Assembly: GCF_002407205.1 (NCBI RefSeq)
Contig: NZ_CP023548.1
Span: forward strand, 2,938,501-3,002,500
Direction of reading: 5' to 3'
Source: Rhodobacter sp. CZR27
Lineage (GTDB): Bacteria; Pseudomonadota; Alphaproteobacteria; Rhodobacterales; Rhodobacteraceae
DNA: 64,000 nucleotides
Shown here: positions 55,931 through 62,605 of the stretch, in pieces
Layout: every line of letters begins with the position of its first letter
Position numbering within the stretch: the first letter of the stretch is position 1
Position numbers and translations under genes: made by a program
The notes under the pieces: generated by a model
Seen by the model: the letters and a program-made list of their open reading frames with translations, nothing else
Database searches by the model: none
Told to the model about the DNA's origin: nothing

Positions 55931-57304
55931 ATGCTCGACCGCGACAACGACCTGAACGCCTGGGACCGCGATCATTTCTTTCATCCCTCGACGCATATGG
56001 GGACCCATGCCCGCGGCGAGAGCCCCCGCCGGATGATCACCGGCGGCGAGGGCTGCCGCATCACCGACGCCGCGGGGCGCGAAAGCCTCGACGCCTTTGC
56101 CGGGCTCTATTGCGTGAACGTGGGCTACGGCCGGACCGAGATCGCCGAGGCCATCGCCGAGCAGGCCCGCCAGCTGGCCTATTACCACGCCTACGTCGGC
56201 CACGGCACCGAGGCCAGCGTCACGCTGGCGCGCATGATCATCGAGCGCGCCCCCGAGACCATGAGCCGGGTCTATTTCGGCCTGTCCGGATCGGATGCCA
56301 ACGAGACCAACATCAAGCTGATCTGGTATTACAACAACGTCCTCGGCCGCCCGGAGAAGAAGAAGATCATCAGCCGCTGGCGCGGCTATCACGGCTCGGG
56401 CCTGATGACCGGATCGCTCACCGGGCTGTCGCTGTTCCATGCCCAGTTCGACCTGCCGCTTTCGCCGGTGCTGCATACCGAGGCGCCCTATTACTTCCGG
56501 CGCGAGGACCGCAGCCAGACCGAGGAACAGTTCAGCGCCCATTGCGCGGACAGGCTCGAGGACCTGATCCTTGCCGAAGGCCCGGACACCATCGCCGCCT
56601 TCATCGGCGAGCCGATCCTCGGCACCGGGGGCATCGTGCCGCCGCCGAAGGGCTATTGGGCGGCGATCCAGGCGGTCCTCAAGAAATACGACATCCTGCT
56701 GGTGGCCGATGAGGTGGTGACGGGCTTCGGCCGCCTCGGCACCATGTTCGGCTCGGTCCACTACGGGATGGAGCCCGACCTGATCACAATCGCCAAGGGG
56801 CTGACCTCGGCCTATGCGCCGCTGTCGGGGTCCATCGTCTCGCAGCGCATGTGGGAGGTGCTGGTCGAGGGATCGGACCGCTTCGGGCCGATCGGCCACG
56901 GCTGGACCTATTCGGCCCATCCGGTCTGTGCCGCTGCGGGTGTGGCTAACCTCAAGCTGATCGACGAGCTCGATCTCGTGCGCAACGCGGCCGAGACCGG
57001 CGCCTATTTCCGCGCCGCGCTGGCCGATGCGCTTTCGGGCCATGTCCATGTCGGCGAGGTGCGGGGCGACGGGCTGATGGCTGCGGTCGAATTCGTCGAG
57101 GACCGCGACGACCGCCGCTTCTTCGACCCGGCAAGGAAGGTGGGGCCCGCGGTTTCGGCCGCGCTGCTGGACAACGGGGTCATCGGCCGCGCCATGCCGC
57201 AGGGCGACATTCTCGGGTTCGCGCCACCGCTCTGCATGACGCGGGAGGATGCGGATATCGTGGTGGACGCGACCCGGAAGGCCGTGGGGAGCGTTCTCGG
57301 CTGA
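55931..57304 (+). CDS. doeD: Diaminobutyrate aminotransferase of ectoine catabolism
   Basis: 457 residues of the class III (omega) aminotransferases. The PLP lysine is Lys289 in TIAKGLTSAYAP; the cofactor Asp is in LLVADEVVTGFGRLG. DoeD transaminates 2,4-diaminobutyrate to aspartate semialdehyde, which DoeC then oxidises. The gene starts 16 bases after doeC and ends the rightward catabolic group, followed by a strong hairpin. With doeA and doeB this completes the path from ectoine to aspartate. Confidence 0.93.
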   Translation: MLDRDNDLNAWDRDHFFHPSTHMGTHARGESPRRMITGGEGCRITDAAGRESLDAFAGLYCVNVGYGRTEIAEAIAEQARQLAYYHAYVGHGTEASVTLARMIIERAPETMSRVYFGLSGSDANETNIKLIWYYNNVLGRPEKKKIISRWRGYHGSGLMTGSLTGLSLFHAQFDLPLSPVLHTEAPYYFRREDRSQTEEQFSAHCADRLEDLILAEGPDTIAAFIGEPILGTGGIVPPPKGYWAAIQAVLKKYDILLVADEVVTGFGRLGTMFGSVHYGMEPDLITIAKGLTSAYAPLSGSIVSQRMWEVLVEGSDRFGPIGHGWTYSAHPVCAAAGVANLKLIDELDLVRNAAETGAYFRAALADALSGHVHVGEVRGDGLMAAVEFVEDRDDRRFFDPARKVGPAVSAALLDNGVIGRAMPQGDILGFAPPLCMTREDADIVVDATRKAVGSVLG

Positions 57305-57652: not shown

Positions 57653-58741
<1,089 letters not shown>

Positions 58742-59175
58742 GGCGGGGACGCGGCGCAGGCTGTCGCGGAGGCCCGGGCGGGTCGCCTGCCCTTGTCTTC
58801 AGGCTGCCCGATTGGGCCCGGCGATGTCTCCGCCACTGCCAGCTACAGGGAGGAGCGCGGCGGCGGACCTCAGCGCCCTGCATCCGCCCTCACGGGGTTC
58901 AGCCGGACGGAGCCGATCGGCTGCCAGTCGCACGTCTTGCCCGACCAGCGATCGGGCGACCGTCCGGAACGGGTTCGTGGACGCGGTAGCGCACGGCCAA
59001 CGACACGCGGTCAGATGGAGGCAGAGGAAGGCCCCGGCAGCCACACGCCACTGCAAATCCGGACGATCGCTTTTCCTCGCCGCGTGGCTGCGGCAGGTCG
59101 CGATATGTCACATTGCATTGTCGAAACACCGGTCAGACCCTGAAAATGGTTCTGTGCTGGAAAAGGATCCGGGTC
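58742..59175. other. 434 bases without a supported gene
   Basis: The stretch between the cyclase and the first precursor peptide contains only short overlapping open frames with no recognisable protein and no convincing promoter or RNA structure. The last 80 bases are richer in A and T and probably hold the promoter of the peptide genes. Confidence 0.5.
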
Positions 59176-59478
59176 ATGAGCAAGGTGAAACTGTCGGACG
59201 ACAAGGGCTTCCTCGCAGACATGGAGGAATTCGACGCGATGGACCTGCCGAGCAGCCCGGCGCTGCGAGCTTCGTTCTCGCCAGAAGGCGGGGAGGATGG
59301 CGACGCGGCAGGGACGAGATCGCCTGATTACTTCCGCGAATATTCGCGTCATGCCGACCATAGCCAGGTGCACTACGACAAGGAAGCTTACACGCGCAGC
59401 CACAGCCGTGGCCAGGGCTATGCAAAACTGCACAGCCGCGAGGGCGACTATACCAAGGTCTATGGCAAGAGCATCTGA
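59176..59478 (+). CDS. Putative RiPP precursor with five aromatic decapeptide repeats
   Basis: 100 residues from the ATG at 59176 (AAGGA about nine bases upstream). Residues 1-34 look like a leader: MSKVKLSDDK then GFLADMEE, DLPSSP and Arg31-x-x-Phe34. The same pattern occurs without gaps in the second peptide at 59582. Residues 35-51 are an acidic, Gly-rich linker. Residues 52-100 are five consecutive ten-residue units starting at 52, 62, 72, 82 and 92, with aromatic residues at unit positions 1 and 5 (Tyr52/Tyr56, His62/His66, Tyr72/His76, Tyr82/His86, Tyr92/Tyr96). In most units positions 3 and 7 are Lys or Arg; for example YAKLHSREGD at 82. Such aromatic-x-x triplets resemble substrates of cyclophane-forming radical SAM enzymes. 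A maturase gene follows. Product and activity are unknown. Confidence 0.72.
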   Translation: MSKVKLSDDKGFLADMEEFDAMDLPSSPALRASFSPEGGEDGDAAGTRSPDYFREYSRHADHSQVHYDKEAYTRSHSRGQGYAKLHSREGDYTKVYGKSI

Positions 59479-59581
59479 CCGGCACGTCTCACCGTCCTCC
59501 CTCGGTGCGGGGCGATGCGGCGGATCGCACAGAGCGCGGCCAGGCTCGAAAAGGCCAACGGGAACACGGAAATGGCACGCC

Positions 59582-59797
59582 ATGTCAGGGAAGCGCGCGC
59601 CTGAGATGCCCGGCTTCATCGCCGAGATGGAGAGGTCCGGACATGCGGACCTGCCGGACAACCCGCCCTATCGCACCGGCTTTGCCGCGCTGCAGACCGT
59701 GGCCGCGACCGACACGAGGGAGAAGATCGCGACTGACACAGCCGGGAGCCTTCGCGAAGGAGCACAGGCCGGTAAACCATGCCTGCCGCAAGCATGA
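59582..59797 (+). CDS. Second putative precursor peptide sharing the leader, core lost or different
   Basis: 71 residues from the ATG at 59582, 103 bases after the first peptide. Residues 1-34 align without gaps to the first peptide: Met1-Ser2, Gly11-Phe12, Ala14, Met16-Glu17, Asp23-Leu24-Pro25, Pro28, Arg31 and Phe34 are identical (13 of 34), with conservative Leu/Ile13 and Asp/Glu15. After the leader the sequence is different: no Tyr, His or Trp, a Thr/Ala/Asp-rich stretch (TDTREKIATDTAGSL) and one Cys67 near the end. It may be a second substrate with another type of modification, a partner that competes for the leader-binding site, or a decayed copy. The ribosome-binding site is weak. Confidence 0.55.
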   Translation: MSGKRAPEMPGFIAEMERSGHADLPDNPPYRTGFAALQTVAATDTREKIATDTAGSLREGAQAGKPCLPQA

Positions 59798-59930
59798 CCG
59801 GGTTCGTTCCGCCGCGCGCCCGGTGGCTGATACCCATCCTTCTGCCTCGCAGGCCCACCCGAGAAGCCCCGTGATCAAAGGGACCCGGCCGACAGCCCGA
59901 AGAGATGACCTGAACAGGAAGAGGCAACCG

Positions 59931-61085
59931 ATGCGCGCGATCTCGATCATCGTCAAGGTCACCAACGGCTGCAACCTGCAGTGCTCCTATTGCTACAACC
60001 GCTTCAACACCAATGCGAAGATCCTCGCACCAGAGGTGCTGGAGCGGGTGATCTCGCAGGCGGCGGCGAGTTTCGATCATGTGAAGTTCATCTGGCACGG
60101 TGGCGAGCCGCTCCTCGCGGGTCTGGATTTCTACAAGCGCGCCAAGGCACTTCAGGAGGCCCGTGCGCGCCCCGGCCTGACCATGCGCAACAACATCCAG
60201 ACCAATGGCACGCTCGTTGATCGCCCGTGGGCCGAGTGGTGCCGCGACAACGGCTTCGGGCTCGGGCTCAGCATCGACGGGCCTGTGGGGATCACCGGCG
60301 AGTCGCGTGCGGCCAAGCGTGGCAATTCCTTCGACGCGATCATTGCCGGGATGGAGGTGATCAAGTCGGTGATGGGCGGCGTCGGCGCGATCTGCGTGGT
60401 CCACAAGCTCAACGCCAGGCGCGGGCGCGATGTCTACGACTTCTTCAGGCGGCAGGGCGTCGACAGCGTTGTGCTGCTGCCGATCATGAACGACCCGAAG
60501 TTCCCCGAACTCGATCTTTGCGACGCCGATTACTTCGCCTTCCACAAGGATTTCTTCGACGCCTGGATCGAGGACGACGACCCGATCGAGGAGGTCGTGC
60601 CGTTCCGCCAGATCGTCAATGCGCTGCGGGGCGATCAGCCGACGCTGTGCTCCTACAGCGGCGGATGCTTCCGCGATTTCGTCTCGATCGAGCATGACGG
60701 CGCGGTCTATCCCTGCTCCGCCTTCTACACCGAGGACTATCGGCTCGGGAACATCCTGACCGACGATCTTGCGGATCTCCTCCGCTCGGCAAGGCTCGAG
60801 GCGATGCGTGCCGAGATGAGGCGCTCTCTGCAGGAACTTTGCAGCGATTGCCGCTATCTCGGGGTCTGCCAGGGCGGCTGCCGCGAGGCGGTGAACACCG
60901 CGAATAACTCGATCTACGGGCGGGACCCGCAATGCGAGGGTCGCAAGCAGGTCTTTGACTATGTCGAGGCGAAGCTGAAGCAACAACTCGGCGAGACCCT
61001 GGCCCGGAAGGCTCGCTACCCGCGCCCTGGCGAGCGCAGCTGGGACTTGGTCTTCCCGACGCATGGACAGCCGGGACCGGCCTGA
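59931..61085 (+). CDS. Radical SAM/SPASM peptide maturase
   Basis: 384 residues from the ATG at 59931, preceded by GGAAGAGG. The radical SAM cluster is Cys14-x3-Cys18-x2-Cys21 in NGCNLQCSYCYN, with HGGEP at 56-60. The C-terminal SPASM domain has eight cysteines in the usual order: Cys240, Cys246, Cys262 (YPCSAF, then LGNI), Cys304, Cys307, Cys313, Cys317 (CQGGC) and Cys335, enough for two extra 4Fe-4S clusters. Such enzymes make C-C, thioether or other cross-links in ribosomal peptides, or mature sulfatases. There is no sulfatase nearby, but there are two leader-sharing small peptides 133 and 452 bases upstream, so peptide maturation is the likely role. No RRE, protease or exporter is visible next to it. 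Confidence 0.88.
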   Translation: MRAISIIVKVTNGCNLQCSYCYNRFNTNAKILAPEVLERVISQAAASFDHVKFIWHGGEPLLAGLDFYKRAKALQEARARPGLTMRNNIQTNGTLVDRPWAEWCRDNGFGLGLSIDGPVGITGESRAAKRGNSFDAIIAGMEVIKSVMGGVGAICVVHKLNARRGRDVYDFFRRQGVDSVVLLPIMNDPKFPELDLCDADYFAFHKDFFDAWIEDDDPIEEVVPFRQIVNALRGDQPTLCSYSGGCFRDFVSIEHDGAVYPCSAFYTEDYRLGNILTDDLADLLRSARLEAMRAEMRRSLQELCSDCRYLGVCQGGCREAVNTANNSIYGRDPQCEGRKQVFDYVEAKLKQQLGETLARKARYPRPGERSWDLVFPTHGQPGPA

Positions 61086-61408
61086 CGTGCGAGGAGCGGG
61101 ACAACCGGGAATGAGAGAGGGTCGATAGTTGCAGAGCCCCGGCTGACCGGACGCCGCCCAATATTGCCGATGAAGTTGAGGATGTACCGGGGCACGGTTT
61201 TGACACACCGCTTTGCGCCGGCCTGAACGCGCGACGGCTTCGGCTTCAAGGGCCGTCCGCTCGGCCCGGATCTGATCCGCGTCTTGCGCCCGTGCCGCTC
61301 ACGCAACCGGCGGGCGTTGTGGAGGGTGTGAACTCTGCCACCGCCCGCCGGAGTTCCGCGGCGGTCGCGAGGTGTTCGGCCGGTAATCTTCCCCGTGGTC
61401 AAGGGCAG
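61086..61408. other. 323 bases without a supported gene
   Basis: Region between the maturase and the first insertion-sequence fragment. No recognisable protein in any frame and no clear terminator. It probably includes degraded mobile DNA. Confidence 0.4.
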
Positions 61409-61614
61409 ATCATGGGCGTGCTGCGTCAGGCGGAGGGCGGTTTGGCCGTTCACGAGTTGTGCCGCGTGCACAGGATCAGCAGCGCATCGCGCTGGCATGC
61501 CGGGCGTTCGGCGTCAGCGAGACCCGTTTCCGCCACAGCCCGAAGCGCGACGAAGAGAACGAGATGATCGCCGACATGCTTGTCGGGTTGACCAATGTTC
61601 ACAAGACCTGGGGC
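61409..61614 (+). pseudogene. Remnant of an IS3-family element (OrfA and OrfB N-terminal pieces)
   Basis: Positions 61409-61486 encode IMGVLRQAEGGLAVHELCRV, the N-terminus of an IS3-type OrfA. From 61477 another frame encodes QQRIALACRAFGVSETRFRH and then MLVGLTNVHKTWG, the early part of the IS3 OrfB transposase. The end of OrfA and the start of OrfB are missing, and OrfB breaks off after KTWG. Its last part reappears at 62672-62818, so the element was split and partly deleted. Confidence 0.8.
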
Positions 61615-61628
61615 TGGCCCGTCCCGAC

Positions 61629-62085
61629 GGCGAGGTCGAAGTCGATGGGGCCGCGTTCGGAGGCCACGTCCGACCAGCCAAGCTGCGCGAGCAGCGGATC
61701 GACCGGCGGCGATCGGTCAACCGCAGCGGCAAGCGCCGCATGGCGGTCGTCTTGCGTCAGCGCGGCGGCCGGACACTGACGCGAACGCTCCCTCAGGAGG
61801 CCCAGGGCGTGGACGTCGCCCGAGAGAGTATCGAGCCCGGAAGTGTCGTCTGCGCCCACGAGATTGCCCATTGGGACCTGCTCGATCCCGACGTCGACAT
61901 GCGCCGGATCAACCATTCTGAGGCCTGCAGCCGCGGCGGCGCGCACACCAATCTTGCCGAGAGCTACTTCTCGCGGCTCAGGCGCATGATCGGTGGACAG
62001 CATCTCCGGGTCGAGGGACGCTTTCTCGACGATTTTGCCACCGCCGCCTGGCTCGAGGACCACCGGTCCGAAAGCAACGGACCCT
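61629..62085 (+). pseudogene. Truncated ISXO2-like (IS1595 family) transposase
   Basis: About 150 residues of an IS1595/ISXO2-type transposase domain: EVEVDGAAFGGHVRPAKLRE at the start, then RRRSVNRSGKRRMAVVLRQR, HWDLLDPDVDMRRINHSEAC and the closing ESYFSRLRRMIGGQHLRVEG. The N-terminal zinc-ribbon part is absent; the homology starts directly after the broken IS3 OrfB. The frame then runs on without homology. Non-functional. Confidence 0.82.
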
Positions 62086-62142
62086 GGCGGATCGTCCGAT
62101 CGAAGGGGCCTTGGCCGCGCCGGTCAGCCTGGCCTGGAAGGG

Positions 62143-62605
62143 TCAAACCATGGACTTGACGGCAACGACGCGCAACGTACCTGCGTCGCCAGCCGCCCAG
62201 ACGCACATGCCTTGCCGCTTCTCCACCATGCGCACAAGCGTGCGGCGCTTGGCGTGGCGCAGCGCCTGGACGACCTTGAACACCAAGGAGTTCCGCAGCG
62301 CCGTGTCCGTGATCTCGAGGTCGCGCTCGACAATCACCCGTTCGGCCAACTCCGGCGTCGTCATTTCCGCGCCATTCCCCATGTGCTGCACGCACATCTC
62401 GGCGATCTCGCCCTTCTTGAAGAACCCGTGGCTCATGATGTAACGCGCCCGCTGGCGCTCCGGCGCCGCGAACAATTCGATGGTCGCGTTCAACATGGGC
62501 GAGGTCGTGCGTGGCGTGCGCGATCTGGGCGTCGGAGGCCTTGATGTGCCCGAGGATCTCGGCGCGATTCTGCTTCAATGTCCGGGCGACCAGGGGTTCG
62601 CTCAT
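62143..62605 (-). pseudogene. Frameshifted small gene of an IS-associated hypothetical family
   Basis: Read leftward from the ATG at 62605, the N-terminus is MSEPLVARTLKQNRAEILGH and then THDLAHV. At about 62492-62498 the frame shifts by one base and the protein continues as NATIELFAAPERQRARYIMS, EIAEMCVQHMG, MTTPELAERVIVERDLEITD and a basic end. Intact relatives in alphaproteobacteria have the two parts in one frame (DLAHV-NATI...) and are common next to insertion sequences. Their function is unknown; the layout (N-terminal coiled coil, C-terminal winged-helix-like part) suggests DNA binding. One extra base at the junction explains the break. Confidence 0.65.

Follow-up and report, generated by a model that had tools for sequence, protein, structure and literature searches.

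A radical SAM/SPASM enzyme beside a peptide with ten conserved [YH]-x-[RKQ] triplets in Rhodobacter sp. CZR27 probably forms a minimal triceptide-like system

We analysed a stretch of 64,000 nucleotides from Rhodobacter sp. CZR27 (NZ_CP023548.1, positions 2,938,501 to 3,002,500; the window) in which three plus-strand frames follow in series within 1.9 kb: a 100-residue peptide (peptide 1), a second, shorter peptide frame (peptide 2) and a radical S-adenosylmethionine (SAM) enzyme with a SPASM domain. The locus is probably a minimal two-gene, triceptide-like system for a ribosomally synthesized and post-translationally modified peptide (RiPP) that makes rings in series. We read it as triceptide-like, with up to ten rings, because every triplet in the core of peptide 1 fits the i/i+2 register of three-residue cyclophanes. 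Judged from sequence, this ten-fold [YH]-x-[RKQ] array is a triceptide signature with YhhB as the nearest described chemistry, which replaces the view of an initial annotation that the core resembled no family that could be named.

The core of peptide 1 (residues 52-100) reads YFREYSRHAD HSQVHYDKEA YTRSHSRGQG YAKLHSREGD YTKVYGKSI, and all nine of its Arg and Lys residues are placed two residues after a Tyr or His. Shuffled versions of the core contain a mean of 2.86 [Tyr/His]-x-[Arg/Lys/Gln] triplets and ten were reached in none of 20,000 shuffles, while the next best of the 902 stop-to-stop frames of the window holds five such triplets in a stretch of equal length. The part preceding the core, residues 1-51, carries a net charge of -7, and removal of the leader would likely take place in the hinge at residues 35-51.

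A word-based search of 5.8 billion proteins returned four homologs of peptide 1 with 70-80% identity over the whole length; a profile search found no further homologs. Conservation figures from these five sequences are rough, but each of the five carries ten triplets, no more and no fewer, at identical places in the core. The third residue of the triplet is invariant in 10/10 cases and the first in 8/10, while in the remaining two Tyr and His are exchanged (YFR to HSR and YTK to HTK), with the middle residue invariant in 4/10 and the spacers at 9 of 19 positions. The leader is likewise conserved and acidic, and the hinge varies in length. The core thus presents aromatic-x-x3 triplets retained among homologs, as in triceptides, and contains no Cys in any of the five sequences, which sets it apart from sactipeptides and ranthipeptides. 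So strongly conserved a core among relatives points to a constant target more than to an antibiotic under diversification.

The candidate maturase (P0003) adjoins a short precursor, as expected of the SPASM-type enzymes of triceptides. Its CxxxCxxC motif (C14, C18 and C21) and its SPASM cysteines (C240, C246, C262, C304, C307, C313, C317 and C335) are all invariant in an alignment of a five-member family, and Pfam recognises Radical_SAM (63 bits, cut-off 29.5) and SPASM (47.5 bits, cut-off 21.5) and no second enzyme domain. The 384-residue enzyme with its three-cysteine motif and full eight-cysteine SPASM domain, and the arrangement of the frames on one strand, are therefore as first annotated. 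In the best 25 of 82 matching NCBIfam models the enzyme stays below the cut-off every time, with bits against cut-offs of 250/349 for the sulfatase maturase model TIGR03942, 230/450 for DynA (NF041298), 136/650 for DarE, 120/310 for GrrM/OscB, 119/445 for YhhB (NF041707), 120/425 for AmcB, 97/370 for FxsB, 60/450 for XyeB and 91/370 for HxsB. On these scores we set aside the curated cyclophane, sactipeptide, ranthipeptide, SCIFF, dynobactin and darobactin families. All five family members match the same 11 NCBIfam models, the bits having been seen for P0003 and P0011.

In three-residue cyclophanes the maturing enzyme connects the aromatic ring of residue i with the beta carbon of i+2, and YhhB, also a SPASM radical SAM enzyme, is reported to make such cyclophanes from Tyr to Arg and from His to Arg (both from an excerpt of PMC11002830). 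By analogy, the window enzyme would dock on the acidic leader of peptide 1, and a 5'-deoxyadenosyl radical would abstract a hydrogen from the beta carbon of the Arg, Lys or Gln that ends a triplet. This carbon would then bond to the ring of the Tyr or His that begins the triplet, with the electron carried off by the two SPASM clusters. Along the core, up to ten small serial rings might form at -2.016 Da each (-20.16 Da for ten), giving a rigid, basic rod, after which the hinge would be cut by a protease encoded elsewhere. The calculated monoisotopic mass of untagged peptide 1 is 11191.24 Da before modification and would be 11171.08 Da with ten rings. The likeness to YhhB concerns the reported chemistry and the enzyme type; the window enzyme matches the YhhB model with only the 119 bits given above. 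YhhB itself, sought as a positive control, was not found (0/21 over the cut-off; 0/398 genomes, with no control genome matching).

The same triplets could instead be crosslinked through a heteroatom, by an ether from the Tyr oxygen or a C-N link from the His nitrogen to the i+2 beta carbon, in the manner of daropeptide and dynobactin maturation. A heteroatom is available on both Tyr and His, darobactin contains an ether crosslink (excerpt of PMC9055067) and dynobactin a C-N crosslink (excerpt of PMC11002830), and such links are the more conceivable because DynA is the second-best enzyme profile after the sulfatase maturase. The cut-offs of both DynA and DarE are nevertheless missed by far, and interchange of Tyr and His with Arg at i+2 is the pattern of C-C chemistry reported for YhhB (excerpt of PMC11002830), so we regard heteroatom links as unlikely. 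Somewhat less likely still is another radical chemistry (beta-hydroxylation, epimerisation or an Arg/Lys-directed change), or a core that serves as an uncrosslinked guide; radical SAM/SPASM enzymes are varied in their chemistry (excerpts of PMC11002830 and PMC9062424), yet single-residue changes would have no obvious use for a strict i, i+2 aromatic/basic register.

An alternative reading, that of a sulfatase maturase with unrelated peptides beside it by coincidence, has in its favour that anSME (TIGR03942) is both the top profile match and the top fold match of the enzyme, in a comparison that re-examined the 1000 best chains of Foldseek with a structure model built from 54 of 120 listed homologs hand-picked for spread, and that the spacing of the SPASM cysteines in anSME is nearly that of the window enzyme. 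Several observations make this reading very improbable, however. The residue following the third SPASM cysteine is Ser (Ser263) in all five family members, at the place of Asp277 in anSME, whose role we take to be catalytic. At this place 82 of the 120 listed proteins, a set that contains the five, have Asp, as do 7/7 Pseudomonadota relatives that were read (L005, L006, L007, L018, L025, L026 and L027), one of which, of the CDHY type, is encoded in the same genome. The numbering of Asp277 was derived from Cys276 as given in an excerpt of PMC5682303. Ser at this place is not unique to the family, occurring in 9 of the 120 listed proteins with the five included. While the window enzyme falls short of the TIGR03942 cut-off, the Asp-bearing relatives P0034 and P0061 reach 467 and 484 bits. 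In a tree of 55 rows, consisting of the 54 hand-picked homologs and the anSME-like frame of the host genome, the five family members form a single clade (support 100/96), whereas 12 of the 20 Asp rows, including the frame from the same genome, P0034 and P0061, form a separate 100/100 group and the other 8 lie elsewhere. Nor was a sulfatase found among seven neighbouring frames. We rejected a sulfatase maturase on the cut-off, the Asp277 position and the tree.

Counts of enzyme homologs refer to the best 120 of 2432 matches, among which P0003 has four close relatives at 85, 85, 56 and 56% identity; both peptide 1 and the enzyme have close relatives elsewhere. The next relative is shorter, with 41% identity over 83% of the query, and the others among these 120 do not exceed 35%. 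A search of genome contigs with the single enzyme gave no further family member, and one with the enzyme alignment gave six distant relatives at 24-31% identity. Viral contigs contained one distant enzyme and plasmids 81 records with enzymes, all below 60% identity; the peptide was found in neither. In whole genomes, enzyme matches were present in 4/101 relatives at E 1e-40, in 1/394 of the family at 1e-70, and at 1e-58 in 2/385 of the class and 3/398 of the phylum, counts that include the host genome each time and come from overlapping sets. The best 4 or 5 candidates were scored per genome in the family, class and phylum scans, so absences there are soft. Only the host's own genome yielded a clade member among the whole genomes searched, all other matches carrying the Asp. 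The genome's other close relative (L018, at G000:C1:1432880-1433902) has CDHY as in sulfatase maturases, and a frame upstream of it in the same orientation contains, by eye, His-rich GGHASHD repeats. One member of the clade (P0011) is named as coming from a Prosthecochloris metagenome-assembled genome (MAG); this occurrence, together with absence from the other genomes searched, suggests that the enzyme spreads by rare horizontal transfer. Prosthecochloris is a phototroph, and the host is probably an anoxygenic phototroph as well, since its genome encodes two PF00124 reaction-centre proteins.

The maturase very probably acts on peptide 1. The longest contigs bearing two of the four related peptides measure 8497 and 3128 nucleotides, equal to those of the two nearest enzymes, and because of these equal lengths each such peptide and enzyme pair appears to be linked, which is suggested but not proven. 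The numbers of contigs with the peptide and with the enzyme differ (4 and 3; 11 and 8). For the Prosthecochloris enzyme the searches gave no peptide, and no partner was seen for P0007, P0008 or P0012.

Among known systems, in the Cluster 41 'H(Y)NR' precursors Tyr-Asn-Arg and His-Asn-Arg triplets recur within a single precursor, next to which the cluster encodes a SPASM radical SAM enzyme; an Fe/alpha-ketoglutarate oxidase and a peptidase also belong to it (excerpt of PMC9062424). In that excerpt the middle residue is Asn, whereas in peptide 1 it varies and Lys and Gln also occur at the third place; neither oxidase nor peptidase was found among the seven neighbouring frames. Our guess is that Cluster 41 and YhhB are the same thing. 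The cyclophane synthase ChlB (PDB 9gm3 and 9gmc) is 23% identical to the window enzyme; the PDB names the molecule 'ChlB radical SAM domain', and work on ChlB is cited alongside fused radical SAM/HExxH proteins (excerpt of PMC12636437), whereas Pfam gives the window enzyme no second enzyme domain. The locus appears to be a rare version of a known RiPP class, distinguished by a maturase clade of its own and by a long motif array under strict conservation, and apparently undescribed in the open-licence literature, which was searched by words and not by sequence.

The initial annotation took both peptides as substrates; this holds very probably for peptide 1, but whether peptide 2 is also a substrate, modified in the same way, is doubtful. 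The gap-free N-terminal 34 residues said to be shared by the two are real but modest, with 13/34 identical. A single-pair BLASTP gives 4e-6, and the local score of 62 is matched by one of 100,000 shuffles of peptide 2, the best of 900 other window frames scoring 49. Peptide 2 is the best non-self frame of the window for the five-sequence profile of peptide 1, but its E value there is 0.14, which weighs against a shared leader. Beyond residue 34 the peptide lacks Tyr, His, Trp and Phe altogether, and no homolog of it was found. Given the lack of a homolog and the profile E value, we did not accept peptide 2 as a proven second precursor, and a frame-shifted second core was dismissed as, by eye, the other frames of 59479-59930 contain no triplet array. 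Peptide 2 could be a degenerate duplicate, a partner that carries a leader but meets a different fate, or a chance resemblance.

Table 1. Features of the peptide and maturase locus and its flanks (window coordinates).
Feature	Position	Strand	Remarks
GGDEF protein gene	57653-58741		upstream of locus
Shine-Dalgarno-like AAAAGGA	59161-59167		before peptide gene 1; by eye
Precursor peptide gene 1 (100 residues)	59176..59478	+	putative; open frame; four full-length homologs, 70-80% identity
Leader, residues 1-34	59176..59277	+	LSxDKxFxADMxExDxxxLPSSxALRASF; kept in 5/5 peptide-1 sequences
Variable hinge, residues 35-51	59278..59328	+	homologs differ in length and sequence
Core, residues 52-100	59329..59475	+	five ~10-residue units, ten [YH]-x-[RKQ] triplets
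Core triplets 1-5	YFR 59329, YSR 59341, HSQ 59359, YDK 59374, YTR 59389		
Core triplets 6-10	HSR 59401, YAK 59419, HSR 59431, YTK 59449, YGK 59461		
Peptide frame 2 (71 residues)	59582..59797	+	leader-like N-terminus, tail without aromatic residues
Shine-Dalgarno-like AGGAAGAGG	59916-59924		before maturase gene; by eye
Radical SAM/SPASM putative peptide maturase (384 residues)	59931..61085	+	
CxxxCxxC of SAM-binding [4Fe-4S] cluster, residues 14-21	59970..59993	+	
SPASM domain, C240-C335	60648..60935	+	eight cysteines
Transposase frame, IS1595 family (ISXO2-like)	61395-62159		~300 bp downstream of maturase gene

Pfam domains were matched in five of the seven neighbouring frames and in the other two there was no match; no protease, exporter or sulfatase was found among the seven, which bears out the earlier remark that protease and exporter are not adjacent. 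The window has no Rfam family at gathering score and no tRNA. Promoter-like sites number 1 against 0.3 in shuffles and terminator-like sites 5 against 1.5, one of the latter (58776-58792) lying right after the GGDEF gene and none between the three genes on the plus strand. A nearby aminotransferase gene (55931-57304) is ~81% identical to plasmid genes of Shinella and Sinorhizobium, pointing to Alphaproteobacteria. In four genomes of the same genus the flank aligns only piecemeal, with 65-74% identity in the longer stretches. The transposase fits horizontal transfer but proves nothing.

Two other candidate loci were met. In a Chitinispirillia MAG, a 49-residue peptide rich in Tyr-x-Asp/Asn repeats (L009 13-162) directly precedes a 748-residue protein kinase/radical SAM fusion (183-2429), possibly a kinase-fused triceptide maturase. 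A Verrucomicrobiales MAG (L013 2281-7349) encodes a radical SAM enzyme, over the cut-off on no listed NCBIfam model, and then a 120-residue peptide with Trp-x-Asn repeats at its end, preceded by an S8 protease frame in the opposite orientation and followed by a frame for an ABC transporter.

As for function in Rhodobacter sp. CZR27 and its relatives, we suggest only tentatively, and consider it less likely than the triceptide-like reading itself, that a separate clade of cyclophane synthases near the sulfatase-maturase line, found in an alphaproteobacterial phototroph and in a MAG of a green sulfur bacterium, converts a nearly invariant core of 49 residues into a rod of ten successive Tyr/His-to-Arg/Lys/Gln rings with a conserved cellular, non-antibiotic role, for example in binding metal, heme or nucleic acid. 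Closure of all ten triplets would mean that a single small enzyme builds ten strained rings into one peptide, with Tyr or His donating the ring, Arg, Lys or Gln accepting it and no constraint on the residue between them; this would be of use in enzymology and in making rigid peptides. Given the strong conservation of the core, the peptide and enzyme pair also offers a way to test how triceptides benefit the organisms that make them.
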